Below, one piece after another: positions 984-14,451 of a stretch of 45,645 nt of DNA. The translations under genes and the position numbers were made by a program. Source of the DNA: a virus; the IMG/VR virus record IMGVR_UViG_3300025087_000124, positions 1-45,645 of that record, one strand, 5' to 3'. Every line of letters starts with the position of its first letter. Position 1 is the stretch's first letter. Below the pieces are notes generated by a model, which searched no databases, was not told the DNA's origin, and saw only the letters and a list, made by a program, of their open reading frames with translations.

Positions 984-2150
984 TTACTTTGCTTTAGACT
1001 TTTTATAGTCTTCTATCGCCTTTTTTCCATACTTCTCCCAGAAAATAGCCCATTCCTCATCACTCTTTTTAGCGTGAGTTGGAAGTGCTTTAATCTCTGC
1101 CTTAATCTTGTCCTCTTCAGAAGGCTCTGCATCAACTTCGTTGACACCGACTTCCTCTAAGTTAATTAAGACTGGATTCTTTTGGAACAAACCAACTAGA
1201 ACCTCAGACAATGAAACTGCACCCTCTGCAAGGTCGACAGTAGCACCACCTTCTTTATGAGCAAGGATAAATCCTTCCTTTTGAGACGGTAGTATTCTAC
1301 CCTCAGATAAAAGCACATTAAATGCCTTCTCTGCTTCCTCACCTTTGAGTGTAGCCTTTAGTTCCGCTAGCTCTATTTGAAGTTTTTGAATTTCAGATGT
1401 TTCACTTAGTTCAGAGGCTTCAATCTCCTCTTTTTTCTCGGAGTCCTCAGCTGGAACTTCCTCAACTACTTCAGCAGGGGTTTCTACAACCTCTTCTACC
1501 GCCTCGGCAGGTGTTTCCACCGCTTCGGGAGTTTCAGCAACTTCCTTCTTAGATTCCTCAGAAACTTTTGGCTCGACTTCTTCAGTCGTTACCTTTTCCA
1601 CTATTGCTTCCTCAGATTCCGTCTTGGTCTCTTCAACCTTAACTTCCTCTAGTTCCACCACTGGTGTAATAGGGTCTTTTGTTTTTGCCATGCTTTGTAT
1701 TTCTGACAAATTAATTAAATAGTTTTTATCGTTCTCCGATAACATAGTAAATCCCTCCATACCTTTAATATAAGGGTTCATAACTGCGGCAACGTGTCTT
1801 AATACCGCACCAACATTCTTTCCACTCTCTTTGTCTATATACTCTGGATCGATTGAAACACTAACATCGTTATACTTATCAAGTTCTTTCTCCTCAATTT
1901 CCATTTCGGCAAATAGTTTTTCACCCTCTATGGATAGTTTATTAATGTTCTTATTTAGTATTAATGCAGGATTCTTTTCGGCTTCTAAGTTTGAAATGTG
2001 GCCCCTAAGAACAGGTACAAACGGAGTAATCTTAAAATTGTCCATTAACTCCTTTAAGTAGTCTGTGGTTACCTCTAGTATCCCTTTAGGTGCATTAGGG
2101 TGCATCCACTTACCAGCTCTCAGTATTTCTTTTTTGTATTTTCTTATCAT
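984..2150 (-). CDS. Prohead protease with C-terminal scaffold (Mu gpI-like)
   Basis: A 388-residue protein. The N-terminal 150 residues (ILRAGKWMHPN, then TTDYLKELMDNF, then PVLRGHIS) match the Mu gpI protease, which matures the prohead. Residues about 165-270 are a very acidic Glu/Val/Pro/Ala-rich tract (repeats such as VVETPAEVVEEVPAED), followed by a short coiled coil (IQKLQIELAELKATLK). A C-terminal segment reading LSEGRILPSQKEGF resembles the scaffold-like tail of gpI. Mu makes a separate scaffold (gpZ) from the same region by internal initiation; an ATG at residue 154 (MAKTKDP), in the same frame, could do so here, but that is inference. It is followed by the decoration and capsid genes. 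Confidence 0.75.
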   Translation of the reverse strand: MIRKYKKEILRAGKWMHPNAPKGILEVTTDYLKELMDNFKITPFVPVLRGHISNLEAEKNPALILNKNINKLSIEGEKLFAEMEIEEKELDKYNDVSVSIDPEYIDKESGKNVGAVLRHVAAVMNPYIKGMEGFTMLSENDKNYLINLSEIQSMAKTKDPITPVVELEEVKVEETKTESEEAIVEKVTTEEVEPKVSEESKKEVAETPEAVETPAEAVEEVVETPAEVVEEVPAEDSEKKEEIEASELSETSEIQKLQIELAELKATLKGEEAEKAFNVLLSEGRILPSQKEGFILAHKEGGATVDLAEGAVSLSEVLVGLFQKNPVLINLEEVGVNEVDAEPSEEDKIKAEIKALPTHAKKSDEEWAIFWEKYGKKAIEDYKKSKAK

Positions 2151-2222
2151 AATGAAAAAGGCCGCCTTGTTAAGATGCTGAATGCACCAAAACTAGCGAC
2201 TTTGTGTTTTATTAACTTAGTC

Positions 2223-2459
2223 TTATTCGATTGTATTCCAATCTACCACTCTTTTAGAATAAATGTCAAGCACCGAACTTCCTGCAATAATAGCTTGATC
2301 CTGCACACTTGTAACCTTGCCCCCCTCAAAACTAATAACTAGGCGTGTTTGAAGCCTTTTTGTTATGCACTCCTCCCACCTAGCAAGTACGAAATCCTTA
2401 TACTTTATCTGTAGAAGATCCTCTAAATTTTTTAAACTGCTCCTGTTTGTTTCTTGCAT
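2223..2459 (-). CDS. Hypothetical protein between sugar cluster and head genes
   Basis: A 78-residue soluble protein (MQETNRSSLKNLEDLLQ at the start) that I do not recognise. It has a helical N-terminal half and a beta-like C-terminal half (RLVISFEGGKVTSVQDQ). Its start overlaps the end of the upstream 99-residue gene by 28 bases, which suggests translational coupling. A gap of about 70 bases separates it from the protease gene. Position suggests a small head-assembly or regulatory protein, but nothing in the sequence shows a function. Confidence 0.6.
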   Translation of the reverse strand: MQETNRSSLKNLEDLLQIKYKDFVLARWEECITKRLQTRLVISFEGGKVTSVQDQAIIAGSSVLDIYSKRVVDWNTIE

Positions 2460-2731
2460 AATGTTGTTAAGTTATTAAATATGTCTATAAATATTTCCAC
2501 GCCTGCCTCGCTTTTACAAACCCTGTCGTTCTCTAGTGGGCAATGTTCTCTAGCCAGTTCAACAATATCGTTAAACCTCATTCCTAATTCATAAAGCCCA
2601 AATAAGTAGCCCAAGGTTTCTGGAGTTAGTATCTGTTCAAAACCAATTGTTCTAACAAGGTCTTTTTTAAGTGTCTCAAATAGGCTCTTATAAAACTTAA
2701 GCTGTGCTATCCTTCTATCAATTGTTTCCAT
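2432..2731 (-). CDS. Hypothetical helical protein
   Basis: A 99-residue, mostly helical protein starting METIDRRIAQLKFY. It has no recognisable motif; two widely spaced cysteines (in EHCPLENDRVCKS) and another near the end are visible. It overlaps the glycosyltransferase gene upstream and the 78-residue gene downstream, so the three are likely translated together. No function is assigned. Confidence 0.6.
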   Translation of the reverse strand: METIDRRIAQLKFYKSLFETLKKDLVRTIGFEQILTPETLGYLFGLYELGMRFNDIVELAREHCPLENDRVCKSEAGVEIFIDIFNNLTTLCKKQTGAV

Positions 2732-3708
2732 TCACTTACCCCTTTTTCTAAACTAAACTTTTCAGCGTGCTTTTTGTTTCTATCTAAAGACCCCTTACCT
2801 TTAAAAGTAGACACTCCCACCTTTTGTCCAACAAGGGAATCAAAGTCTATAAACTCGTTGACTGTTTCCTGTAACCCACCTATTCTCCTTACAACGGGAA
2901 TTGCCCCGCAGTATTGAGCCTTTATTGCATTCATACAAAACAATTCTCCGTCTGGATTGTTACACGGAAGACACCAGTACTCAGACCTCCAGTACATTTC
3001 ACTCATTTGGGCAAAAGAAAGCCTGCCTAAGAGCTCTATTCCTTCCTGCTCCGTTAGTTTCATTATTTTCTTCTTCCAGTCCGCCATAGAAGGGTTAAAG
3101 GCAATTACCTTGTCTATAAAGTCCCATCCGTAGGTTATGTATAGCTTTTTAAGTTTTAACTTCTCTTTAACTGTACCCCACTTCGATAGTAAGTCCTCAA
3201 GCCCCCTGTCGTAACTTGAACAGTAGAGCATAGACCCCTCCTCTTTCGCTACCTTATTTTCGTCTAATCTGTTTAAATCCGCCCACAAGTACATTGGTTG
3301 AATCTTTACGTCTTTCGTGGCCATCCTAGAGGTGTGGTAGTTGCTTATAGTTATTACCTTATCTACGTTTCCTAACTCGTAGGGCAACCACTCTCCTTCA
3401 ATATCCGTTGTCCAATGAAACCTCTTTCTAGCACCAATACTCTTTTGAAACATTTCTCTGGTCTTGAAGGAAACAAAAACGTCCCTAGTCATGAATCCTT
3501 TAAACTCTAAATGGTCTCTATAATGCACCCCGTCAAAGTCCCCGTGTTCTCCGTTATGGTAAATGGTTACATCGTAGTCTTTAGAAAGTCCTCTAGCAAG
3601 TTCAATTAGTTTTTCTTCACTTCCGCCTACCCCTGTTTCAAGTGACTTAGCACTCCAACCTTCTTTAACTAGGTTTGTGTAAAAGTGTATCTTCTTCTTT
3701 GGGTTCAT
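2707..3708 (-). CDS. GT-B glycosyltransferase (GT4-like), last of the sugar cluster
   Basis: A 333-residue protein with the layout of a GT-B glycosyltransferase. It has an early glycine-rich GVGGSEEKLIELARGL segment (the donor-side loop with GGSE), a mid TISNYH segment, and a C-terminal half with SSYDRGLEDLL, ITYGWD and NNPDGELFCMNAIKAQ, the last being the equivalent of the E-x7-E region. The same landmarks (GIGGSEGMC, SSYDRGLDNVL, YYGWN, EFYEISCINAMTAQ) occur in the C-terminal half of the protein at 12004-14451, so the two are paralogous modules. It probably transfers an activated sugar to a surface or virion glycan; donor and acceptor cannot be read. Its start overlaps the preceding methyltransferase stop (ATGA). 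Confidence 0.75.
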   Translation of the reverse strand: MNPKKKIHFYTNLVKEGWSAKSLETGVGGSEEKLIELARGLSKDYDVTIYHNGEHGDFDGVHYRDHLEFKGFMTRDVFVSFKTREMFQKSIGARKRFHWTTDIEGEWLPYELGNVDKVITISNYHTSRMATKDVKIQPMYLWADLNRLDENKVAKEEGSMLYCSSYDRGLEDLLSKWGTVKEKLKLKKLYITYGWDFIDKVIAFNPSMADWKKKIMKLTEQEGIELLGRLSFAQMSEMYWRSEYWCLPCNNPDGELFCMNAIKAQYCGAIPVVRRIGGLQETVNEFIDFDSLVGQKVGVSTFKGKGSLDRNKKHAEKFSLEKGVSEWKQLIEG

Positions 3709-4325
3709 ATTGGTCTGTATAAAATTAGCAGTTGGTCGTCTCTAACGACACTTTCTTTAATCTCTCCGTACTTAGCAATCAGTTTTTCAAACTCTTCTTT
3801 AGTAAACATTCTAACGTGTTCTTCATTTCTCTTGGCGTCTTCTAGTCCGTGTCTACCATTAGCGTCTGGCGTAGATACCATTACATAAGTACCTAACCGA
3901 CTTAACACCTTCAACAAGGCGTTCTCGTCTACTACGTGTTCTATAACTTCTAAACAACTGACCGTGTCCGCGTGAAGACCCTCTGGCATATCTTCAGCAA
4001 ATCCTTTTTGAAACATTTTTCTACCGTCCCAACCTAATTGATCGGCCTTGTGTCTTGCCTCAAGTATAGAATCCTCACTTGGGTCTATACCAACACAATC
4101 AACCCCCATCGCTTGGAGTGTTAGACATTCGTAACCGTCTTTGCAACCCACAGCTATATGAGTTCTACCGTCTAACTCGTGTACCTTCTCTACTAGCCAT
4201 GCTATACGGTCTATCACCTTATGGGCTTGTGTACAGTTTTCTAATGGCATGAAGTTGCCGTCACTCTTGGCGTAGTATTCTTTGTTCTTATCCTTGTCCA
4301 GATACTTTTTGTTTTTTGTTTTCAT
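3705..4325 (-). CDS. Class I SAM-dependent methyltransferase
   Basis: A 206-residue protein with Rossmann methyltransferase motifs: motif I at about residues 56-64 (IAVGCKDGYE, a variant of the usual E/DxGxGxG), an acidic end to strand 2 (VGIDPSED), and a motif IV/post-I region reading VSCLEVIEHV, followed by YVMVSTPDANG. The last resembles the ubiE/COQ5-like and Methyltransf_23 families. It stands among glycosyltransferase and nucleotide-sugar genes and therefore most likely O- or C-methylates a sugar or its intermediate. It ends in TGA overlapping the next ATG, which also shows that TGA is a stop in this genome. Confidence 0.75.
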   Translation of the reverse strand: MKTKNKKYLDKDKNKEYYAKSDGNFMPLENCTQAHKVIDRIAWLVEKVHELDGRTHIAVGCKDGYECLTLQAMGVDCVGIDPSEDSILEARHKADQLGWDGRKMFQKGFAEDMPEGLHADTVSCLEVIEHVVDENALLKVLSRLGTYVMVSTPDANGRHGLEDAKRNEEHVRMFTKEEFEKLIAKYGEIKESVVRDDQLLILYRPI

Positions 4326-4332
4326 TGCTATT

Positions 4333-4560
4333 CTAACTAAAATTAATTCTCCGAATATAAGCCCTCAAGAACTCTAAATAATCCGAAGTAAACCCAAACT
4401 TTTTATCAAACTGTCTAAAAAATAAATCTATAAACGACATTATTCTCTCATTACTTTCAGTCATTTCTTCAATCATTATTTCACGAGGCAACCCCGTCCT
4501 CTGATAAAAATCAAAGGTGTAATAGTCTAACCAAGTTATAAAATTGCTAATCTTTTCCAT
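4333..4560 (-). CDS. Small hypothetical protein in sugar cluster
   Basis: A 75-residue protein rich in aromatic and charged residues (WLDYYTFDFYQR, FFRQFDKKFGF) with no family I recognise. It overlaps the end of the transketolase C-terminal gene by 14 bases and is followed after 7 bases by the methyltransferase gene, so it is clearly part of the cluster. It could be a small partner protein of one of the neighbouring enzymes; that is a guess from position. Confidence 0.6.
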   Translation of the reverse strand: MEKISNFITWLDYYTFDFYQRTGLPREIMIEEMTESNERIMSFIDLFFRQFDKKFGFTSDYLEFLRAYIRRINFS

Positions 4561-5122
4561 ATTTCTTTATAAAATATTCTTTACTCCCCCCAGTTTTTGG
4601 ATATTCTTTTAACTTGTCCAAGTCTATTTCAATCTCTGGATTCTCTTTATACCCACCAACTCTTATATACCGAGGCCTAGTAGGGGTTTCCCTTAATAGC
4701 TTATCAAGTTCTTCCTGGGTTTCTGGTGTGTAAATGTCTATGTTTAACAACTGTCCAATAGCCTTATCATCATCAAATGCAAAGTGGGTACTCCCTAAGT
4801 ATGCGTAATCAAAGTTAGTACCCACCCCGATCATCGTAACTGGTGAATTCTGGTAGCACAGGTCTAGCTTAATCTGTTCAAAAGCCCTCAAGTAGAAGGC
4901 ACACATAGTATATGTAAACACCTTCTTTCCCGCTAACGCTAATCCTGAAGCGATACCAACCATACTCTGTTCAGCCAATCCCACATTAATAAACCTATTA
5001 CCCATCTTTTCTTTAAGTGGCTCAAGAACGTTGTAGCCAACGTCTGCCGTCAAAAAGTAGGTATTATCGTCATTTATTTTTAGTAGTGTGTCTACTATTT
5101 TAGTTCTCATTGTAAAATCCAT
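4547..5122 (-). CDS. Transketolase, pyrimidine-binding (C-terminal) subunit, short
   Basis: A 191-residue protein matching the pyrimidine-binding domain of two-subunit transketolases. It has FLTADVG, then FINVGLAEQSMVGIASGLA, whose Glu (in GLAEQ) is the one that activates thiamine diphosphate, then YTMCAFYLRAFEQIK and a histidine in GSTHFAFDDD. The usual C-terminal domain of the family (another ~100 residues) is missing. It should pair with the N-terminal subunit at 5663-6355 to form a thiamine-dependent ketol-transfer enzyme. A methyltransferase gene separates the two halves. In a sugar cluster the likely role is adding a two-carbon unit to a keto sugar, giving a branched sugar; that role is inference. 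Confidence 0.8.
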   Translation of the reverse strand: MDFTMRTKIVDTLLKINDDNTYFLTADVGYNVLEPLKEKMGNRFINVGLAEQSMVGIASGLALAGKKVFTYTMCAFYLRAFEQIKLDLCYQNSPVTMIGVGTNFDYAYLGSTHFAFDDDKAIGQLLNIDIYTPETQEELDKLLRETPTRPRYIRVGGYKENPEIEIDLDKLKEYPKTGGSKEYFIKKYGKD

Positions 5123-5694
5123 TATTTTTTTATAAGCTCAAATACTCCTCTACCACCTATAGGTTGATAAACCTTAAATCCGTTCTCTTTAGCAAACCTG
5201 TCTACAGACAAAGTTACTCCTGGCCACCCGTAATCGTGTCCTAGAATATGCTTTACCGAATGCTTACATAAACATAGCTCAAGATACACAATAGGGTCTC
5301 TATGATCCCCGTCTATAAAACAGTATTCGTAGGTGTTGTCTATAATAGCCATAGCACCCGTCCAATCTAAAGACTTACTCCTTACAGTTCTCACGCAATC
5401 CGCCAACTCTTTGAGACTCGCTTTCATTGATTCCTCCGTGTGTTCTCCGTAAATATGCGTCTTGGCTTCGTCTTCGTCTATAGGGATATCAAACGTGTCC
5501 ACTACAGTATGCTTACCACCCTTTTCCTTTGCTATTGCACAACATACATAAGTCAACATTCCCTTGTAAGCTCCTATTTCTAGCGAATTACCACCTTTAT
5601 TAAGCTCTCTAAATCTATCAATAAGCCACTCAAGTTCGTCCCAACTCATTTTAGCGTCTGGATTAACTTGCCAAGCCTCGTCTATTAATCCCAT
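5122..5694 (-). CDS. SAM-dependent methyltransferase (Methyltransf_24/TylF-like)
   Basis: A 190-residue protein with the landmarks of the TylF/CmcI-like methyltransferase group. It has LEIGAYKGMLTYVC (SAM loop, about residues 38-51), VVDTFD (acidic strand-2 end), then FIDGDHRDPIVYLEL and ILGHDYGWPGV, the metal-binding D-x-D-H and HDY segments typical of metal-dependent O-methyltransferases acting on sugars. It sits between the two transketolase genes, overlapping the N-subunit gene by 32 bases and touching the C-subunit gene, so a joint role in finishing the same sugar is plausible. The ATG at 5692-5694 is a good start. Confidence 0.75.
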   Translation of the reverse strand: MGLIDEAWQVNPDAKMSWDELEWLIDRFRELNKGGNSLEIGAYKGMLTYVCCAIAKEKGGKHTVVDTFDIPIDEDEAKTHIYGEHTEESMKASLKELADCVRTVRSKSLDWTGAMAIIDNTYEYCFIDGDHRDPIVYLELCLCKHSVKHILGHDYGWPGVTLSVDRFAKENGFKVYQPIGGRGVFELIKK

Positions 5695-6355
5695 TGTTCT
5701 TTTTATATAACTTATATATTTCCTTATCTACCTTCTGGTAATGACTGGCCAAAGTATTTTCCAACTCACCCCAACCCTCACCCTTAGTAGAATAGAACTT
5801 AAATGTGTTGTAGGGTATTTGACCCTCACTTAACTCCTGAAAACCACCGAAGCCATTCACATCAACAACAGGTACTATGTTTCTTATTTCCAGTCTTCTA
5901 ATAATCTGTAACGATTCAAGTGTAGACCCTTCTTGACATTCCCCGTCACTCATAATAACAACCACCTTACGGTCTGGATTAGCTATCGCCCAACCTATAC
6001 CGATAGGCAATCCATGTCCTAACGACCCTGTAGAAGCGTATATGCCGTGTTCTATGTCTAGTGTGGCGTGCCCTGATAGCCCATCGTCTTTGTAATAACT
6101 CTTTAACATCTCATTGCTTATAACACCTGCTTCGTTTAAACAAACATACTGTGCCAACGCACCATGTCCCTTTGAAAGAATAACAATAGCCTTCGGGTCG
6201 TCATAATAAGTAGCTACTAGTATAGGAGCAACTGTCATTGCCGAAGCTACATGACCACAACCCGTTTCAAGTCCTATTCTCATTATTCTATCCTGTACTT
6301 TACGGGTTATGGCTTTAATCTCTTTTAGTCTTTTAGTTTTTTGTTTCTCTGTCAT
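5663..6355 (-). CDS. Transketolase, thiamine-diphosphate-binding (N-terminal) subunit
   Basis: A 230-residue protein with the ThDP-binding fold of split transketolases: LETGCGHVASAMT, then ILSKGHGALAQY, LSGHATLDIEHGIYASTGSLGHGL (residues about 93-116), and the cofactor motif starting MSDGECQEGSTLESLQ and ending VDVNGFGG. These correspond to the conserved histidines, the SLG loop and the GDG...N magnesium motif. Together with the protein from 4547-5122 it would form a complete active site. Phage-borne transketolase halves are rare. It is the third enzyme gene downstream of the dehydrase and dehydratase, so it likely acts on the keto-sugar they make. Confidence 0.85.
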   Translation of the reverse strand: MTEKQKTKRLKEIKAITRKVQDRIMRIGLETGCGHVASAMTVAPILVATYYDDPKAIVILSKGHGALAQYVCLNEAGVISNEMLKSYYKDDGLSGHATLDIEHGIYASTGSLGHGLPIGIGWAIANPDRKVVVIMSDGECQEGSTLESLQIIRRLEIRNIVPVVDVNGFGGFQELSEGQIPYNTFKFYSTKGEGWGELENTLASHYQKVDKEIYKLYKKNNGINRRGLAS

Positions 6356-7071
6356 AGATTTAATAGTTTCTTCATTTTAATTGGGTTTCCTACCCAAACA
6401 CTAGGTTCGTACTGATTTTGCTTGTATTTGTGCCACTTTTTATTGTCCTTACCGTTTAATATAAAGTCCCCGTTCTCAAGGGACTCTCCCTCGCAAACGT
6501 TTATTATTTCTCCGTACAGGTGCTTGGCGTGTAGTAGCCTCTCAACCGCATAAGAAACCAACTCTACAGGGAAATAGTCTCTACAATCCTTTGGGTTTCC
6601 GTACTTCAAAGCTTTTTTAAATCTAGACACAAAGTTCTTACCACCCTCTCCGTAAGGACTGAATATTCTTAGCGTGTTGTAACCAAGCAACTTAGCATAC
6701 AAAGTCACCGATAACTTTGCAATCCCGTAAGCATTCACAGGCTCGCATACCATATCTTCTTTCATAGGCTCGTATTTAACACCGTACTCACTTGAGCTAC
6801 CTATGTTAATAACTCGAATACCCCTCTTTTTACACTCATTAAAGAAGTTACAAGTCCATTCAGCAAACTCTAAGTGTTCTATAGACTGTAAGTCCTTGTC
6901 CGTACACCACGCACAGTGAATAACCGTGTCCAAACCCTCAAGTACCGACCATTCCTGATTCATAAACTCGCCTCTAGTTATCAAAGTAACCTCGTACCCA
7001 AGATCGTATAAATACTTACTCACGTGCTTACCTACAAACCCTGTTGACCCCGTTATACCTATTTTACCCAT
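6352..7071 (-). CDS. NAD(P)-dependent sugar epimerase/4-ketoreductase (extended SDR, short)
   Basis: A 239-residue short-chain dehydrogenase. The nucleotide motif GITGSTGFVG is at residues 5-14, the catalytic serine lies in GSSSEYG (91-97), and the Tyr-x3-Lys pair is Y115/K119 (YGIAK). It is shorter than typical epimerases (~300+), with the substrate domain trimmed. Such enzymes serve as 4-ketoreductases for 3,6-dideoxyhexoses (abequose and paratose synthases). That role would fit directly after the 4,6-dehydratase and the RfbH-type enzyme encoded upstream, but the exact product cannot be read. It overlaps both neighbours by a few bases. Confidence 0.75.
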   Translation of the reverse strand: MGKIGITGSTGFVGKHVSKYLYDLGYEVTLITRGEFMNQEWSVLEGLDTVIHCAWCTDKDLQSIEHLEFAEWTCNFFNECKKRGIRVINIGSSSEYGVKYEPMKEDMVCEPVNAYGIAKLSVTLYAKLLGYNTLRIFSPYGEGGKNFVSRFKKALKYGNPKDCRDYFPVELVSYAVERLLHAKHLYGEIINVCEGESLENGDFILNGKDNKKWHKYKQNQYEPSVWVGNPIKMKKLLNL

Positions 7072-8036
7072 TCTGGATTATTCATACTAAATTTAACTGT
7101 CTGCTCTAACGCATTGTCAAAGTCGAATGGTGGTCTCCAACCCAACTCCAGTATCTTACTATAGTCTATTGAGTATCTTCTATCATACCCTGGTCTAATT
7201 GATTTGGCCTCTACCATTTCATACTTCAATTCTTGACCCATAATATCCGCTACCTTTTGAGCCATTTCTAAGTTACTCAATTCTACTTCGCTTCCTACAT
7301 TAATCTTCTTCTCATTCTGTTCTAGCATATACAATATAGCACTTGCACTATTCTTAGCGTATAACCAGTATCGGCTACCTACTACCCCGCCTGTATGATG
7401 TATAGGTACTTTTTCCCCTCTAAGTATATGTCCAACTATCTTAGGCACAAACTTTTCAGGATCTTGTCTTTCTCCGAACATATTCATAGTACGCATTATG
7501 GTAATCGGCAATCCATACGTTTCCATATAGGCATTCGCTATCATTTCTCCAGAAGCTTTCCCAGCACTGTAAGGATTTCTAGGATTTAAAGCGTCTGTCT
7601 CCTTAAACTTTGATCCGACTTCAGCGTCTCCGTATACCTCGTCTGTAGAATAGTAAATAAACCTCTTTAATCTAGTCTGATACTTCCTTGCGTAATCTAA
7701 CATCGAGATTGTAGACAAAGAATTGTTAACAAACACCTCTCTAGGTCTAGTAATAGAATCATCAACATGACTGTCCGCAGCTACGTGTACAATGTAATCA
7801 ACTTCCCCTATATGACGGTGTACAGAATCCAACGGGTCTATTAGATCGTGTCTGATAATCTGTACTCTTTTAGGTAGGTTGTAGCCCTCCACAATCGATT
7901 CTAAACGGTTCAAGTTACCCGCCCTACTCATTCGCACAAGGCACACAATTTCCCAATCAGTAGTATGCAAAAAGTACTCAAGTACATGAGCACCTACAAA
8001 CCCAGAAACTCCCGTTATTGCTACCCTTGTATTCAC
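7059..8036 (-). CDS. NDP-glucose 4,6-dehydratase-like protein (RmlB-like)
   Basis: A 325-residue extended SDR with a textbook dehydratase signature. It has GVSGFVG at 9-15, HVAADSHVDDSI at about 84-95 (compare HxAAxSHVDRS in RmlB), the catalytic T131-D132-E133 in STDEVYG, and Y156/K160 in NPYSAGK. The TDE triad is what distinguishes 4,6-dehydratases from epimerases. The product would be an NDP-4-keto-6-deoxyhexose, the substrate of the RfbH-type enzyme just upstream. The start is GTG at 8034-8036, preceded by a leader that repeats a sequence found 121 bases upstream. No nucleotidyltransferase is present, so the NDP-sugar probably comes from the host. Confidence 0.8.
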   Translation of the reverse strand: MNTRVAITGVSGFVGAHVLEYFLHTTDWEIVCLVRMSRAGNLNRLESIVEGYNLPKRVQIIRHDLIDPLDSVHRHIGEVDYIVHVAADSHVDDSITRPREVFVNNSLSTISMLDYARKYQTRLKRFIYYSTDEVYGDAEVGSKFKETDALNPRNPYSAGKASGEMIANAYMETYGLPITIMRTMNMFGERQDPEKFVPKIVGHILRGEKVPIHHTGGVVGSRYWLYAKNSASAILYMLEQNEKKINVGSEVELSNLEMAQKVADIMGQELKYEMVEAKSIRPGYDRRYSIDYSKILELGWRPPFDFDNALEQTVKFSMNNPEWVK

Positions 8037-8169: not shown

Positions 8170-8179
8170 TTATTTATAC
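8162..8179. repeat. Direct repeat copy 2
   Basis: The second copy of the 18-bp repeat overlaps the stop codon of the RfbH-like gene. The two copies bracket the GC-richer segment with the interleaved inverted repeats, as if that segment had been inserted or duplicated between them. Confidence 0.7.
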
Positions 8180-9414
8180 CTTCCCAAGAACTCAAGTATC
8201 TTCTCCTTCATATACGCCCTCTGTTCTTCTTTTATACCAGGGTGTACCCCTATCCAGAAGCTATTGTCCATTATGTCATCACTTACACTTAGGTCGGGGT
8301 GTTTTCTGAATGCCCACTTGCCACCCCTAGAAAGTACGGGTTGTTTAGTAATGTTACCACAAAAGAAAGCCCTACTCCTGATACCCTGTTCATCTAGGAA
8401 CTGCTCAAACTCTCTTTTAGTAAACGGAGCTTTATCGTTTAGTTTTATAACATACCCGAAAGGACTCATTTCGGCACCGTCATACGCTAGTGTAGGTTCA
8501 AACCATTCCTTGTACTGACTGAACACCGCAGTTAGAAACTTGTGGTTAAATTGCCTGTCTCTAATAAATCCTGGTAGCCTTTTCATTTGCTCTACTCCAA
8601 TCGCAGCTTGTATCTGGCTCATTTTAAAATTAAACCCGAACTCCGTGTACGTGTTCTTATGGTCGTACCCCTTTGGTAGTTCACCGTGCTTTTGTCCGTA
8701 CCTAGCACCGCAAGTGTTGTCCTGCCCTGGAGGGCAATAGCAATCTCTACCCCAATTGATCATTGCATTTAATCCCCTTTGAAGCTGAAAGTTGTTTGTC
8801 ATTACAGCACCGCCTTCGCCTGTAGATATATGGTGTGCAGGATAAAAGGACAAAGTACTTAAATGACCAAAGCTACCAGTCTTTCTACCGTTCCACGTCC
8901 CGCCTAAGCAGTCGCAGTTATCCTCAATCAAGGTTATTCCTTCTTCTTCACAAATAGCCATTATCTCTTCCAAATTAAATGGGTTTCCCAAAGCGTGAGC
9001 CACCATGATAGCCTTTGTTTTATCGGTTATCATTTCCCTAACTTGTCCAGGGCTTATGTTCCAAGTATTCCTTTCCACATCAACAAACACAGGTATCGCA
9101 CCCGAATAGGCTATGGGACTTACGGTAGTTGGAAAACTTAATGCAGTGGTTATTACTTCGTCACCCTTGTTCAATCTTCTATTAACAGGAATGTAGTCGG
9201 TAGTTAGTGCCATTAAGGCTGCGAAGTTTGCACTCGTACCGCTGTTGACTAATTCAACGTGTTTCATGCCAATAAACCCACTCAAAGCCCTTTCAAACTC
9301 TTCAGTAGGTTCACCCTCGACATTCCACCATTGCTCGGCTGCTCTTTGTGCTGCTTCGACCTCTTCTCTGCCGTGTACAGGCGTTGAAGGATCAATTCGT
9401 ATTTGGCTACTCAT
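8170..9414 (-). CDS. rfbH: RfbH/E1-type NDP-4-keto-6-deoxyglucose 3-dehydrase (PMP, 2Fe-2S)
   Basis: A 414-residue DegT-fold protein. The pyridoxal lysine of aminotransferases is replaced by histidine: FYPAHHISTGEGGA, with H194 at the lysine position. The four iron-sulphur cysteines of the E1 family are present with the exact known spacing C-57x-C-1x-C-7x-C (C167, C225, C227, C235, in EDNCDC and GRDCYCPPGQDNTCG). The downstream GYDHKNTYTEFGFN block also matches RfbH. E1 removes the 3-hydroxyl of NDP-4-keto-6-deoxyhexose using PMP and electrons from a reductase (E3), and starts 3,6-dideoxyhexose synthesis. No E3 gene is visible in the window; the host or a generic reductase would have to supply electrons. 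The dehydratase gene follows directly. Confidence 0.9.
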   Translation of the reverse strand: MSSQIRIDPSTPVHGREEVEAAQRAAEQWWNVEGEPTEEFERALSGFIGMKHVELVNSGTSANFAALMALTTDYIPVNRRLNKGDEVITTALSFPTTVSPIAYSGAIPVFVDVERNTWNISPGQVREMITDKTKAIMVAHALGNPFNLEEIMAICEEEGITLIEDNCDCLGGTWNGRKTGSFGHLSTLSFYPAHHISTGEGGAVMTNNFQLQRGLNAMINWGRDCYCPPGQDNTCGARYGQKHGELPKGYDHKNTYTEFGFNFKMSQIQAAIGVEQMKRLPGFIRDRQFNHKFLTAVFSQYKEWFEPTLAYDGAEMSPFGYVIKLNDKAPFTKREFEQFLDEQGIRSRAFFCGNITKQPVLSRGGKWAFRKHPDLSVSDDIMDNSFWIGVHPGIKEEQRAYMKEKILEFLGRYK

Positions 9415-9417
9415 TTG

Positions 9418-10263
9418 TTACAAACTATCATAAAACTTAGAGAGAATCAATGACTCAATTTTTAGTAATTGCTCTTTCATTTCGTACTTTTTAACCTTTA
9501 GGTATCCACTCTCTATAATGTCCTTATAGCTGTCGTAATCCTTCAGTACAGCGTCCAGTTGTGTGGGCAAATCACTTAGCCTGTTCCAATATATGAACTG
9601 CCTGCCGTTCTCAAATCCTAGCTTCTCGATTAGGGAAGTTTGTAGTCTCTTCTGTAATAATAACGAGTTACTTCCCATTGCTTCAAAGAATCTATTGTTA
9701 AGTATAATGTCCCAAGGCTCTGTAGGTTGGTTAATAACTATTTTGGCGGAGCTCATGACCTCGGAATAGGTCTCCAAGTCTTCAATTCTGCCACAATAAC
9801 TATTATATCCCTTTAAAACTTCCCACAATCGTATTCTTTCCTGACTATTAGCGTTTCCTATCATAACAACGTCATACTTCTTTTCTATAGGCTTAAAGTA
9901 CTCCTCACGGTATGTAATCGGTACTAAGTAGCTTTCTATTCCGTTTAATTCGAGAAGCTTTGCTCCGTGTTCATAATTACTACTAATCACTAGTTCGCAC
10001 TTTCTAGCTAGGTTACAACCCCTATCAAGACCCCCTGGCATATGAGAATCCATTAGCCAACACACTTTTGGATACTTAATCTCTGGTATATTAGCGGTAA
10101 AGTCCTCGCTACAATCGACAAAGAAGTAAACCCCCTTCTTAACAGGTATTCTTTCGTTGCGGTCATAGGCTTCGACCTCGTGCCCAATCTGGCGTAAACC
10201 GTCTACAACCCACTGTCCCATAGACCCGTATTGTCCCAGGTACCCCACAACAATAAACTTCAT
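9418..10263 (-). CDS. Glycosyltransferase, CgeB/GT-B-like
   Basis: A 281-residue protein resembling the CgeB-type glycosyltransferases. The N-terminal half has MKFIVVGYLGQYGSMG and VCWLMDSHMPGG. The C-terminal half has DVVMIGNANSQERI and INQPTEPWDIILNNRFFEAM, the family's E-x-M region that marks the donor-binding domain (RFFEAMGS). It probably adds one sugar to the glycan built by this cluster. It overlaps the Nudix gene by an ATGA junction and lies 3 bases from the RfbH start. Confidence 0.7.
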   Translation of the reverse strand: MKFIVVGYLGQYGSMGQWVVDGLRQIGHEVEAYDRNERIPVKKGVYFFVDCSEDFTANIPEIKYPKVCWLMDSHMPGGLDRGCNLARKCELVISSNYEHGAKLLELNGIESYLVPITYREEYFKPIEKKYDVVMIGNANSQERIRLWEVLKGYNSYCGRIEDLETYSEVMSSAKIVINQPTEPWDIILNNRFFEAMGSNSLLLQKRLQTSLIEKLGFENGRQFIYWNRLSDLPTQLDAVLKDYDSYKDIIESGYLKVKKYEMKEQLLKIESLILSKFYDSL

Positions 10264-10730
10264 AAGTTTTGTATTAGCTTTCTATGGTAATTAATCATAT
10301 TCCCTGGTAGTTCATCTTTTGAATAAAACAAACCAACCTCACCATTACCCTTCACATACCTTGCCTTATAGAGCAGATGAGTTATAGTTCCCCTCTTAGT
10401 TTCCGCCGTGTAAACATCAAACAATTCCGCCTCGACTGGTTTGAAGGAGGAAAAGTCGTCTAAAAAAAGTCTTTCTATCGCCTTTTTCACCGTCTCATTT
10501 CCTCTTACCATAGTGCCAGGTATATGGTACTTACTAGGCCAAAATTTATCATCAACTCTTCTTTTTACTAAACAGTATTTTTTATGTTTGCCCATACCCT
10601 TATACATAAGTAACTCCACAGAGAGCTGGTGGTTAATCCTTTGCATTTCAAAGAAGATAGGCTCTGGTAAAAACCCAGGCCTTAACCTTTTAAGAAGTTT
10701 CACCGTTAACCAATCTAGTAGTGTTTTCAT
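10260..10730 (-). CDS. Nudix-fold protein with degenerate catalytic box
   Basis: A 156-residue protein with the overall layout of a Nudix hydrolase: a KYCLVKRR strand, then KYHIPGTMVRGNETVKKAI, followed by LFDVYTAETKRG. The Nudix box G-x5-E-x7-R-E-U-x-E-E-x-G-U is only partly kept: G and the first E are present (GTMVRGNE), but the R-E-x-x-E-E segment reads RLFLDDF. Loss of the metal-binding glutamates suggests weak or changed activity, perhaps a binding role. In sugar clusters such proteins often act on GDP-mannose. It is packed between a methyltransferase and a glycosyltransferase gene. Confidence 0.6.
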   Translation of the reverse strand: MKTLLDWLTVKLLKRLRPGFLPEPIFFEMQRINHQLSVELLMYKGMGKHKKYCLVKRRVDDKFWPSKYHIPGTMVRGNETVKKAIERLFLDDFSSFKPVEAELFDVYTAETKRGTITHLLYKARYVKGNGEVGLFYSKDELPGNMINYHRKLIQNL

Positions 10731-11317
10731 GCCTTTGTCCCTCTCATTCCGAATGCAGGGTAGGTGTGCATATTCGGATATAATTTAATATCCACAAGTC
10801 CCACATCTTGAAACAGCTTCCTTAATGTCTTTTTGTTGTACATTGCCTTGTGAACGCCGTACTCGTTCTTCTGCGATCCGTACAAAAGCCTTGTTCCCCA
10901 CACAGGGTCGGTTCTATATATTTCCACCGTTCTATCTAGGTCTGGCACATCTAAATGGACAAACCCTCCGTGTTTTAGAAGTGAAACCCAATACTCTAGT
11001 ACCTCCCGACCCTCTACAAACGAAAAGTGCTCAAATACCTGAACTCCAAGTATTTCGTCAACACTTTCTTTCTCGTAAGGCAATTCTCGTATATCAGCAA
11101 ACAAGTCGCAAACGTTCTCCTTGTGTTGTAAAGACCCGCTCAAGAATATATCCCTATCAACATACTCCTTATAGTAGCTATCTAATGTTGTCGTATTCTT
11201 TTCCACTAAATCAGGTCTGTCTTTTGCTAAAAAGGCTTCGGGCAATGAAACGTCTATATTTGTATATCCTGGAGTTAGGTAGACCGTTCCGTTTGCTAAG
11301 TGCAGTTTATTTTTCAC
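10727..11317 (-). CDS. SAM-dependent methyltransferase-like protein (COG4627-like)
   Basis: A 196-residue protein starting with GTG. The opening KLHLANGTVYLTPGYTNIDVS matches the COG4627-type opening (LHLGCG...GWINID), but with LANG in place of LGCG, so the SAM loop is altered. The later segments VQVFEHFSF and HGGFVHLDVPDLDR fit motif IV and the strand after it. Activity is therefore uncertain, although the fold seems clear. It overlaps the upstream glycosyltransferase gene by 11 bases. Confidence 0.65.
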   Translation of the reverse strand: MKNKLHLANGTVYLTPGYTNIDVSLPEAFLAKDRPDLVEKNTTTLDSYYKEYVDRDIFLSGSLQHKENVCDLFADIRELPYEKESVDEILGVQVFEHFSFVEGREVLEYWVSLLKHGGFVHLDVPDLDRTVEIYRTDPVWGTRLLYGSQKNEYGVHKAMYNKKTLRKLFQDVGLVDIKLYPNMHTYPAFGMRGTKA

Positions 11318-12002
11318 AGTAAGTTATTGGTAAAGTTAAATCGTTGTAAGGATGTAAAAACTTTTCTTCATTGGCATCCCCACCCCACTTTTGAATATAT
11401 CTCTTATAAGCCCTGTCAAGCCTCTCGGCATCGTTTCCTATCGTTCCAGAGTAAGGAGGATGATATTCTAACTCCATATCGGGTTGTATCCACTCAAAAC
11501 CACACACCCTCGCCCTATAAAGAAAATCCCTCTCCACAAATTCACACGGAAACTGTTCGTCAGCGTATCCTACCGCCTCTAAAACCCCTTTGCGTAACAA
11601 AAACGTAGCAGGATCTTTAGGTTTGTGAGTGGTAAGCCGTTCCGTATAACTTCTTTGACCGAAGTTCTTTTTAAAACCCTCGTAGTCTCTGGTAACTTTA
11701 CAGGAAATAGCCCCTCCTTTTGGGTTCTCCTCTGCACACCTTACAAGAAAGTCCACCATCATAGGGTCGTGCTCCACGTCATTAGCGGTGATAAGTAGGT
11801 AATCGTATTCTTTACCCATCCATTGCCTAAAAAAATGATTCCATACGCCCGCAACCTTCGTTTCGTACCTTCTGCCATCCTCATAGACCTTTAAACAGTG
11901 TTCAAACGACATTAAAGACTTTCTAGACTTGTCAGTCATTTCCTGTTGTTCTTTATTTGTTATGTAGTACGGCAATAAAGCCTTTATCTTTATACACTCC
12001 AC
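11307..12002 (-). CDS. GT-A-type glycosyltransferase-like protein
   Basis: A 231-residue protein with an apparent GTG start (an internal ATG at residue 22 is the alternative). It has an acidic mid-region ITANDVEHDPMMVDFL (a D-x-x-x-D-like donor motif), and ATFLLRKGVLEAVGYADEQF, then FVERDFLYRARVCGFEW, a pattern seen in GT2-like enzymes where an E-x-D near the C-terminal end is the catalytic-base region. Donor and acceptor are unknown. The gene lies 1 base downstream of the large bifunctional glycosyltransferase gene. Confidence 0.6.
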   Translation of the reverse strand: MECIKIKALLPYYITNKEQQEMTDKSRKSLMSFEHCLKVYEDGRRYETKVAGVWNHFFRQWMGKEYDYLLITANDVEHDPMMVDFLVRCAEENPKGGAISCKVTRDYEGFKKNFGQRSYTERLTTHKPKDPATFLLRKGVLEAVGYADEQFPCEFVERDFLYRARVCGFEWIQPDMELEYHPPYSGTIGNDAERLDRAYKRYIQKWGGDANEEKFLHPYNDLTLPITYCEK

Positions 12003-12003
12003 C

Positions 12004-14451
12004 CTAATTAGAATCGAAAAACTTATCCCACTCCAAAGCTAATTTTTCCATATCAAATTGCTTTCTAGCCCACTTCATCATAGGTTTTCTTCTTTTTTCA
12101 AGTTCTTCTGGATTGTCTAGTAAGTAAACACAAGCCTCTGGTATCTCGTTTAATTCCGCCTTAATACCAAACTCTCCATTGACTGTCTCATTAAGTGCTG
12201 CAAACGGAGTACATACAGGCACACAACCCATTGCCTGTGCTGTCATAGCGTTAATACACGATATCTCGTAAAATTCTGTAGGATACAACCATATACTAGC
12301 TTCCTTAAAAGCCTTGTACAGCTCATTTTGTGAAACTCTACCTACTTCTCTGACCCCTAAAGGTGCTAATTGCGTCATCATACCGACTATCCGATTCTTG
12401 TAGTCTCTCATATAATTGCCTTGTGGAGTACCTTGTCTTGCGTTCATCATAGCGTCATAAGTATTCCAACCGTAGTAAATATCCAAAGTCGCTTCAGGGT
12501 GCTTCTCTTTAATAGAGGGCCACATACTCAACACGTTATCAAGTCCTCTGTCGTAGCTTGAAGCATAAATAAACTTATTCTTATCTCTCTCACCTGCGTG
12601 TTCATCTGCATACGCCATCGCAATTGGATTCAATCCGTTTCTAGTAACCCAAAACTGCTTATCGTCTAACACCCCGTGGTTCTCTTTAATCACCTGTTTG
12701 TGTGACTCACTTAATACGAATACCTTGTTAGGAGCGTAAAAATGACCCAATTCTAACTCGTTTCCATACTCTGTGTCGTGTAGCCACAAATACTGTTTAG
12801 TCGCCCTATACACTTGGTTAAACATATCAGGCCTTCTCATTACCACCAAAACGTCACACTTCATGCCTGCATTAAACTTCTTCCAATCCATGTAAGTAAC
12901 CCCGTCTATGACTTTCCCGTCTGACTCCCCACATTCGTTGTATACATACACCTCGTTACCAATCGCAGCAAGTTCTCTACTCATTTGAATACACATTCCC
13001 TCACTACCACCGATTCCCTTTTCCTTGTCTGAATTGCCATCCCAAGGTTCGTAGTGACCCCCTACAAATATAACAATAGACTTTTTTCCCTTTAGTATGG
13101 TCTGTACACCTTTCCTGGAGTAGTTATCCGTTACTTCTTTAATAATTTGTTGCACATACCTTTCTTCTTTTAGTGGTAGGGGAATAGCTGTCTTTAACCT
13201 GTCAAACATAGGCACATCGTTTGTGCTAATAATATACTTAGTTACTTGAGCCAATCCCTTCATCGCTTCCTGTTTAGTTACTTCGCTTAGTATATTTCTT
13301 TTGTCGTTCTTATGCCCTGGAAGTGGGGATAACTTAATTATTTCGTCAGCCATTGCTAAAGCCTCGGCATTCATACCCTTAAACATATAAGCCTGTTCAA
13401 GTATCTTTCGTGGAGTTATTAAATAGTCGTACTCATTAATTGGTGCGGTTGTATTAGGCATTCCTATTTGCAAAACCTTTTGTGCATAAGTAGCTGCTTC
13501 TTCCCACCGATTAAGCATAGCGTAACTCTGTGCAATGGTTACATACGGCTCTGCTCTATCTGGCTGATTAAGCACTCTCGGTATATTACTTGCCTTTAAA
13601 AGTACCATGAGAGCTGTGTAAGGCTTGTTCATAGACATATACGCAAAACCCATTTTCAGGTAGGAGTTATACATTCCCTCTAAGTCGTTAGACTCTTTTA
13701 GTCTCTTTGTAAGTATTCTGTAGTACTTTAAGGAAGGTTTAAACTCTCTGTGTTCCCAATGGTCAAAGGCTAGGTTATGAAGCATTTTATTACTAAACTT
13801 CTCAAGACCGTCTTCTTCTAACTGTCTAGTCATAATGATATTGTTTCTCCTGCCTGTAGCAATGGCTTCGTGTGAAGTCCTCTCGTGTTCAACCGACAAC
13901 AAGGGTATGTCTACCATCTTGTGAGGTGGCACTATTTCGTAAGTTTCATGTACTCTGTCTTTCCATTCTCCTTCAATCCTTAAATCTATAAACCTTTCCC
14001 TTTTCTGTACAACAGGCTTCAGTCCATCGGAACTCTTAGCGTATACATAAGTTACAAGTCCAAGATTAACACCTTCTTTATCTAGTCTTTCAGCTATCTC
14101 TGGTACTAATTGAGGGTTTACAAGCACATCGTCTGAATCAATCCAGAAAGCATAGTCATACCCCTTAGCTAGAGCAAAACTATCATTTCTGGCCCTTCCG
14201 AAGTCGCCAAGCCATTCACGGTCTTCTACCATGACTGATTTATAATCTTTTCCTATGAATTTCTTTGAGGTTTTAAATGGTTTCTTGTTGTCTTTACACC
14301 ATTTCTCAAACATTTCTACAGTACCGTCTTTTGATCCTGTGTCTTGAAGGAAGTATCCATCGAATACTCCTTGTGTTGAGTTAAGCGTTCTTAGTAATTG
14401 CCTTTCCCTGTCTTTAGCAATCACGCAAAGGGCTACTTTGACTTTCTTCAT
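12004..14451 (-). CDS. Large three-part glycosyltransferase (GT2 + TPR + GT4)
   Basis: An 815-residue protein with three visible parts. Residues 1 to about 210 are a GT2 domain: VALCVIAKDRERQL, then LQDTGSKDGTVE, and the donor motif D105-S-D107-D108. Residues about 215-430 are helical repeats with TPR-like spacing (LKYYRILTKRLKE, YVTIAQSYAMLNRWEEA). Residues about 450-815 are a GT-B domain with GIGGSEGMCIQMS, SSYDRGLDNVL and EFYEISCINAMTAQAMGCVP. It is the first gene of the sugar cluster, next to the tail-fibre-like genes. It could attach and then extend a glycan on a virion protein, or act at the host surface. Confidence 0.8.
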   Translation of the reverse strand: MKKVKVALCVIAKDRERQLLRTLNSTQGVFDGYFLQDTGSKDGTVEMFEKWCKDNKKPFKTSKKFIGKDYKSVMVEDREWLGDFGRARNDSFALAKGYDYAFWIDSDDVLVNPQLVPEIAERLDKEGVNLGLVTYVYAKSSDGLKPVVQKRERFIDLRIEGEWKDRVHETYEIVPPHKMVDIPLLSVEHERTSHEAIATGRRNNIIMTRQLEEDGLEKFSNKMLHNLAFDHWEHREFKPSLKYYRILTKRLKESNDLEGMYNSYLKMGFAYMSMNKPYTALMVLLKASNIPRVLNQPDRAEPYVTIAQSYAMLNRWEEAATYAQKVLQIGMPNTTAPINEYDYLITPRKILEQAYMFKGMNAEALAMADEIIKLSPLPGHKNDKRNILSEVTKQEAMKGLAQVTKYIISTNDVPMFDRLKTAIPLPLKEERYVQQIIKEVTDNYSRKGVQTILKGKKSIVIFVGGHYEPWDGNSDKEKGIGGSEGMCIQMSRELAAIGNEVYVYNECGESDGKVIDGVTYMDWKKFNAGMKCDVLVVMRRPDMFNQVYRATKQYLWLHDTEYGNELELGHFYAPNKVFVLSESHKQVIKENHGVLDDKQFWVTRNGLNPIAMAYADEHAGERDKNKFIYASSYDRGLDNVLSMWPSIKEKHPEATLDIYYGWNTYDAMMNARQGTPQGNYMRDYKNRIVGMMTQLAPLGVREVGRVSQNELYKAFKEASIWLYPTEFYEISCINAMTAQAMGCVPVCTPFAALNETVNGEFGIKAELNEIPEACVYLLDNPEELEKRRKPMMKWARKQFDMEKLALEWDKFFDSN

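Follow-up and report, generated by a model that had tools for sequence, protein, structure and literature searches.

Why would a phage encode a transketolase split between two genes, shortened, and surrounded by genes for nucleotide sugars and glycosyl transfer? The window, meaning the whole stretch of DNA analyzed here, is a viral record of 45,645 bases that includes terminase, portal, and tape-measure-like genes. The question can be approached through the domains and residues of the transketolase pair, the genes next to it, and the distribution of this arrangement in other viruses and in cells.

Gene cluster

The cluster lies on the minus strand. The ThDP pyrophosphate-binding (PP) subunit, TK-N (230 aa), is encoded at positions 5663 to 6355 (PF00456, Transketolase_N; E value 3.5e-8), and TK-C (191 aa), which consists of the pyrimidine-binding (Pyr) subunit only, at 4547 to 5122 (PF02779, Transket_pyr; 1.4e-15). 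Between them, at 5122 to 5694, is a gene for a 190-aa methyltransferase of the Methyltransf_24 family (PF13578; 8e-9). All three Pfam matches exceed the curated cut-offs. The overlap of TK-N is 4 nt (ATGA) with the preceding SDR gene and 32 nt with the methyltransferase gene, and the methyltransferase stop codon and the TK-C start codon have one base in common (TAATG). The coordinates of the open reading frames, their strand, and the Pfam matches thus confirm the initial annotation, which described transketolase subunits flanking a methyltransferase gene, all overlapping.

The adjoining SDR reductase/epimerase (6352 to 7071; PF01370, 8.2e-19) is a candidate for reducing the branch or ring ketone of a sugar. 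It is followed by an SDR similar to NDP-glucose 4,6-dehydratases (7059 to 8036; phrog_540, 4.3e-83; TIGR01181, 246 bits, below the cut-off of 365) and by RfbH, an E1-type PMP-dependent [2Fe-2S] 3-dehydrase (8170 to 9414; NF011936, 500.6 bits, cut-off 423). Other cluster genes encode a class I methyltransferase, MT23 (3705 to 4325; PF13489, 3.2e-14), a GT4-type glycosyltransferase (2707 to 3708; PF00534, 3e-6), a glycosyltransferase-like protein (9418 to 10263; PF13524, 2.6e-8), a methyltransferase-like protein, MT11 (10727 to 11317; PF08241, 3.2e-4), and a GT2-like protein (11307 to 12002; PF00535, 0.003, below the cut-off). An 815-aa fused protein (12004 to 14451) begins with a GT2 domain (PF00535, 2.5e-8), continues with TPR repeats, and ends with a GT4-like domain (Glyco_trans_1_4). 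The cluster is adjoined by genes for a head maturation protease (984 to 2150; phrog_976, 2.5e-12) and a virion structural (head decoration-like) protein (495 to 962; phrog_1731, 3.9e-11). None of the cluster proteins looks membrane bound, and the cluster includes neither a polymerase nor a flippase. Neither a sugar nucleotidyltransferase nor an E3 reductase was found in the record, which is linear and possibly a fragment.

Domain architecture and conserved residues of the transketolase pair

The third transketolase domain (Transketolase_C; PF02780) has no match anywhere in the record even at an E value of ≤10, in a search that detected it in 14 of 14 control genomes. It is likewise absent from the four related phage contigs described below. 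This result bears out the proposal that the C-subunit lacks the third domain and leads us to reject a location of that domain in a separate gene elsewhere in the record. TK-N is also short, with most of the stretch between the Asn of the Mg site and the last His motif gone. Because the third domain was not found, we refer to the pair as two-domain transketolase-like and not as a standard transketolase.

The best match of the TK-N family profile among solved structures is the N chain of a split transketolase, 6YAK (5.7e-66), and the TK-C profile matches the C chain in 6YAJ across the Pyr domain (7.8e-43). Both structures are of the split-gene transketolase of Carboxydothermus hydrogenoformans (PMC7661550). 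That enzyme likewise carries PP and Pyr on separate chains, with the same ThDP and donor-site residues, but its C chain has the third domain (Pyr, residues 1 to 162, followed by residues 164 to 312), its PP chain is longer, and it has been studied as a metabolic enzyme with no link to a sugar cluster. Two PHROG families match the phage proteins, phrog_18761 for TK-N (5e-7) and phrog_23258, a profile of 153 positions, for TK-C (2.9e-12); both are unlabeled, with no assigned function.

In the alignments of relatives, TK-N residues H35, H64, H96, D137, and N167 (53 sequences) and TK-C residues E51 and F76 (52 sequences) are invariant, and TK-N H205 and TK-C H113 are nearly so. The Mg/ThDP motif of the PP domain, GD(G)-X25-30-N, is present as SDG...N, with D137 and N167 forming the predicted Mg site, and TK-C E51 corresponds to the catalytic Glu of the Pyr domain. 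Alignment to 6YAK/6YAJ and to the data of PMC7661550 equates TK-N H64 and H96 and TK-C H113 with the donor-site histidines H66, H100, and H473 of EcTK; they are kept in at least 51 sequences. All diagnostic transketolase histidines are therefore present, and an origin of the pair as decayed or chance open reading frames is rejected, given its conservation in relatives and the retention of all catalytic residues.

These residues bear on two other readings of the pair. TK-C scores 60.7 bits on the DXP synthase model NF003933, about the same as on transketolase, and an enzyme of the DXP synthase or YerE type would decarboxylate pyruvate and transfer an acetyl unit to form a sugar resembling yersiniose; YerE performs such chemistry on the same type of acceptor (PMC12247030). 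However, TK-N has His (H96) at the position of EcTK His100, a residue replaced by Phe in DXP synthase (PMC7661550), making a transketolase-type donor, a ketose phosphate, likelier than pyruvate. There is also no enzyme of the decarboxylase family to which YerE belongs (PF02776) in the five phage records, so that the use of pyruvate appears highly improbable. The other reading is a role in central metabolism, and here every residue for ordinary transketolase activity is retained. Modeled on the role thought for cyanophage transaldolase, it would have the phage enzyme push host pentose phosphate flux to ribose 5-phosphate for nucleotides. Yet the transketolase genes overlap within a nucleotide-sugar and glycosyltransferase cluster in all five related phages, and one Patescibacteria genome (L111) encodes a long split transketolase together with a short one that lies in a glycan cluster, which points to specialization of the short form. 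We consider a metabolic role improbable.

RfbH and the predicted acceptor

RfbH aligns over its full length with the solved dehydrase E1 (3BCX/3BB8; 5e-106). The [2Fe-2S] ligands are present as C-X57-C-X-C-X7-C at residue 167, as they are in the related contigs L002, L005, and L018, and in the PAHH motif, aligned to 3BCX, His replaces the PLP-binding Lys. Since it retains all four cysteine ligands of the iron-sulfur cluster and the His of the E1 catalytic site, the protein is expected to produce a 4-keto-3,6-dideoxy sugar, namely an NDP-4-keto-3,6-dideoxyhexose. No PF00175 reductase that could be its E3 partner is seen in the window or its relatives, and all five records are linear and may be fragments.

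Inteins interrupt RfbH in L002 (positions 1156 to 3189; 677 aa in all) and in L114 (positions 3408 to 6554; 1,048 aa in all), two of the five phages. Both proteins have Intein_splicing and Hint domains, and the one in L114 also has LAGLIDADG. The L002 intein is inserted exactly at the Cys that corresponds to the first iron-sulfur ligand of E1.

Conservation in related phages

The same cluster is found in four further viral contigs (L002/L112, L005, L018/L113, and L114), next to the same head protease and decoration genes, with 47 to 64% identity in the transketolase pair. The window and these relatives form one fully supported clade in a tree built from 120 dereplicated pairs. The order RfbH-SDR-TKN-TKC is a constant core in the five phages, as are the flanking MT23 and GT1 genes (in the window, the methyltransferase at 3705 to 4325 and the GT4-type glycosyltransferase at 2707 to 3708). 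The SDR gene adjoins TK-N in all five, with one small open reading frame between them in L002. The 4,6-dehydratase-like gene is variable. A close homologue occurs in L002, a different SDR precedes RfbH in L005, and no such gene separates RfbH from the SDR in L113 and L114.

The methyltransferase gene separates the transketolase subunits in two of the five phages, the window and L005. It is downstream of TK-C in L002, reduced to a 66-aa C-terminal remnant between the subunits in L113, and absent in L114. Its position between the halves is therefore incidental, and the transketolase pair is the conserved element; the methyltransferase between subunits was rejected as a conserved functional unit, given the varying order and the remnant or missing gene in two of the five phages. 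Methylation of the branched sugar by the in-between gene, part of the initial proposal, finds no support in a gene that is displaced, truncated, or missing among phages whose other cluster methyltransferases are constant.

Bacterial clusters with RfbH and transketolase

In Marinomonas flavescens (L100), a single run of genes encodes a ferredoxin-type (E3-like) reductase, a glucose-1-phosphate cytidylyltransferase (TIGR02623), a CDP-glucose 4,6-dehydratase (TIGR02622), RfbH (734 bits), TK-N, a full-length TK-C, an SDR, and an FkbM methyltransferase. The part of this run from E3 to TK-C (E3-RfbF-RfbG-RfbH-TKN-TKC) recurs in Enterovibrio baiacu (L106), and a third locus, L046, has RfbF-RfbG-RfbH-TKN-TKC. 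Unlike in the phages, the E3-like reductase adjoins the RfbH and transketolase genes in L100 and L106. Among 79 cellular transketolase pairs, E1 is encoded within 6 kb of 6, and RfbF or RfbG is found with 10.

In the biosynthesis of yersiniose A and erwiniose, the ThDP enzyme YerE/ErwE branches C-4 of CDP-4-keto-3,6-dideoxyglucose, an acceptor made by RfbF, RfbG, RfbH, and E3 (PMC12247030). YerE is an enzyme of the acetolactate synthase type that uses 2-oxo acids, whereas the phage clusters have a split transketolase instead. By gene content, the Marinomonas and Enterovibrio clusters are the yersiniose gene set with a predicted split transketolase in the slot of YerE; the only matches to PF02776, the YerE superfamily, in the Marinomonas genome are on contigs other than that of the transketolase cluster. 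This independent recurrence of E1 with transketolase in bacteria is the strongest support for the predicted ketol branching.

Distribution of the two-domain form

Viral and cellular sequences were scanned with a short sequence pattern, and the matches were confirmed by comparison with the short protein of the window. A Pyr-only TK-C (153 to 195 aa) was found in 54 of 82 viral pairs and a short TK-C in 4 of 79 cellular pairs, counts that include near-duplicate contigs and are not census figures. The third domain has no match at any of the 54 short viral loci and was detected at 22 of the 28 long ones. The four cellular cases (L095, 8001 to 8477; L108, 7923 to 8435; L109, 7980 to 8480; and L111, 7986 to 8480) come from three Patescibacteria and one nanoarchaeon. 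The short form is not a general trait of Patescibacteria, as 192 sampled genomes gave two clear full matches; the remaining short frames matched only in part or were truncated, and almost all the rest measure at least about 300 aa.

On the tree, a quick LG+G4 reconstruction with weak deep branches, the short form requires at least two changes. L142, L160, L177, and L181 make up a second, separate Pyr-only group nested among long viral transketolases, which suggests that the third domain was lost independently there. Three of these (L142, L160, and L181) have in common a gene of about 270 aa immediately upstream of TK-N; the copy that was checked, in L181, has no Pfam match.

SDRs dominate the neighborhoods of the short viral and cellular pairs, which also include methyltransferases and glycosyltransferases. 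An SDR is encoded within 6 kb of 34 of the 53 viral two-domain transketolases and E1 of only 4, indicating that the general partner is a keto sugar made by an SDR and not the E1 product. As RfbH is missing from the neighborhood of most of the other two-domain transketolases of phages, the acceptor differs within the family. These counts also favor a different division of labor in the window, in which the SDR reduces the RfbH product to an ordinary 3,6-dideoxyhexose while the transketolase makes another building block of the same glycan, using a different keto-sugar acceptor or producing a seven- or eight-carbon ketose. Genes near some relatives, among them those for FkbM methyltransferases, sugar kinases, and radical SAM proteins, fit this option as well. 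We nevertheless regard it as unlikely, since RfbH and transketolase occur in one run in the five phages and in L046, L100, and L106, and no other consumer of a ketose product was recognized among the annotated genes.

Several matches stand apart. On the viral contig L003 (4844 to 9501), which lacks RfbH, a full-length split transketolase is flanked by a CDP-glucose 4,6-dehydratase-like gene and a cytidylyltransferase-like gene, a hint of transfer to CDP-4-keto-6-deoxyglucose. Campylobacter phage vB_CjeM_WX1 encodes a 192-aa PP-domain “putative transketolase” (L008, 7821 to 8399), with no Pyr partner annotated nearby; this PP-only protein is distant and outside any sugar cluster and was set aside as a counterpart. 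Matches in records of Acinetobacter “phage” MD-2021a, of Salmonella houtenae, and of “Bacteriophage sp.” from human feces were excluded from the phage evidence, as these records either have a full-length TK-C or are unverified and look like bacterial DNA.

Known systems with related chemistry

The idea that a transketolase branches a sugar is not new, having been proposed for Streptomyces, and related chemistry has been tested for Rif15. In miharamycin and amipurimycin biosynthesis, a split transketolase has been proposed to add a hydroxyacetyl branch to a keto sugar (PMC12247030), and the same review, citing Krug et al., reports a proposed role in keto-sugar branching for 13 Streptomyces split transketolases. 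As of that 2025 review, there was no in vitro demonstration of such branching (PMC12247030). The Streptomyces systems differ from the phage one in belonging to antibiotic clusters, with neither phages nor RfbH described in PMC12247030. In rifamycin biosynthesis, the experimentally tested two-subunit transketolase Rif15a/b uses a C2 unit derived from ketose phosphates to attack a ketone of rifamycin S, and the product rearranges to an ester (PMC6002545). Rif15a/b resembles the phage pair in its two overlapping genes and in joining a ketone with a C2 unit; it differs in its nonsugar acceptor and ester product.

We found no description of a phage transketolase associated with nucleotide-sugar genes or RfbH, and none of the recurring two-domain form, in the literature searched, whose coverage stopped short of subscription papers. 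The remark in the initial annotation that no well-described phage system of this type exists therefore stands for phages, although the underlying idea had already been published for Streptomyces antibiotics.

Proposed function

The best reading of the locus, to which we assign a probability of about 55%, remains the one first suggested, a ketol transfer to C-4 of an NDP-4-keto-3,6-dideoxyhexose followed by the SDR step. It draws on the retained ThDP and donor-site residues, the adjacent E1-type RfbH, and the bacterial clusters with transketolase in the YerE slot. Against it, an ordinary 3,6-dideoxyhexose would need no more than RfbH and a plain SDR reductase, and activity could be altered where the third domain is missing. 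TK-N and TK-C would form a two-domain transketolase-like ThDP enzyme, probably α2β2 like the Carboxydothermus enzyme, that transfers a two-carbon ketol (hydroxyacetyl) unit, with a host ketose phosphate as the donor, to the C-4 ketone of the sugar presumably made by RfbH. The neighboring SDR would then probably reduce a ketone of the branched product, and the methyltransferases and glycosyltransferases of the cluster would finish and attach the sugar. As neither the nucleotidyltransferase nor the E3 electron donor was found in the record, the host would have to supply both.

The neighboring head genes and the lack of a membrane protein, polymerase, or flippase make a virion protein a likelier target of the glycan than host LPS, so that attachment to the virion might be weakly favored. 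The TPR repeats of the glycosyltransferase at 12004 to 14451 may likewise fit the glycosylation of a soluble virion protein.

Implications

More broadly, and quite tentatively, a minimal two-domain transketolase (PP and Pyr, about 360 to 430 residues) might have arisen at least twice in viruses and become specialized for ketol branches on nucleotide-linked keto sugars, building branched sugars on virions or host surfaces. The phage, Marinomonas, and Enterovibrio clusters are compact enzyme sets and the acceptor can be made enzymatically, so the branching proposal is directly testable. If it is true, the two-domain form would demonstrate that nature can do without the third transketolase domain, these proteins would provide small enzymes for tertiary alcohol synthesis, and branched sugars would join the biosynthetic repertoire of phages.
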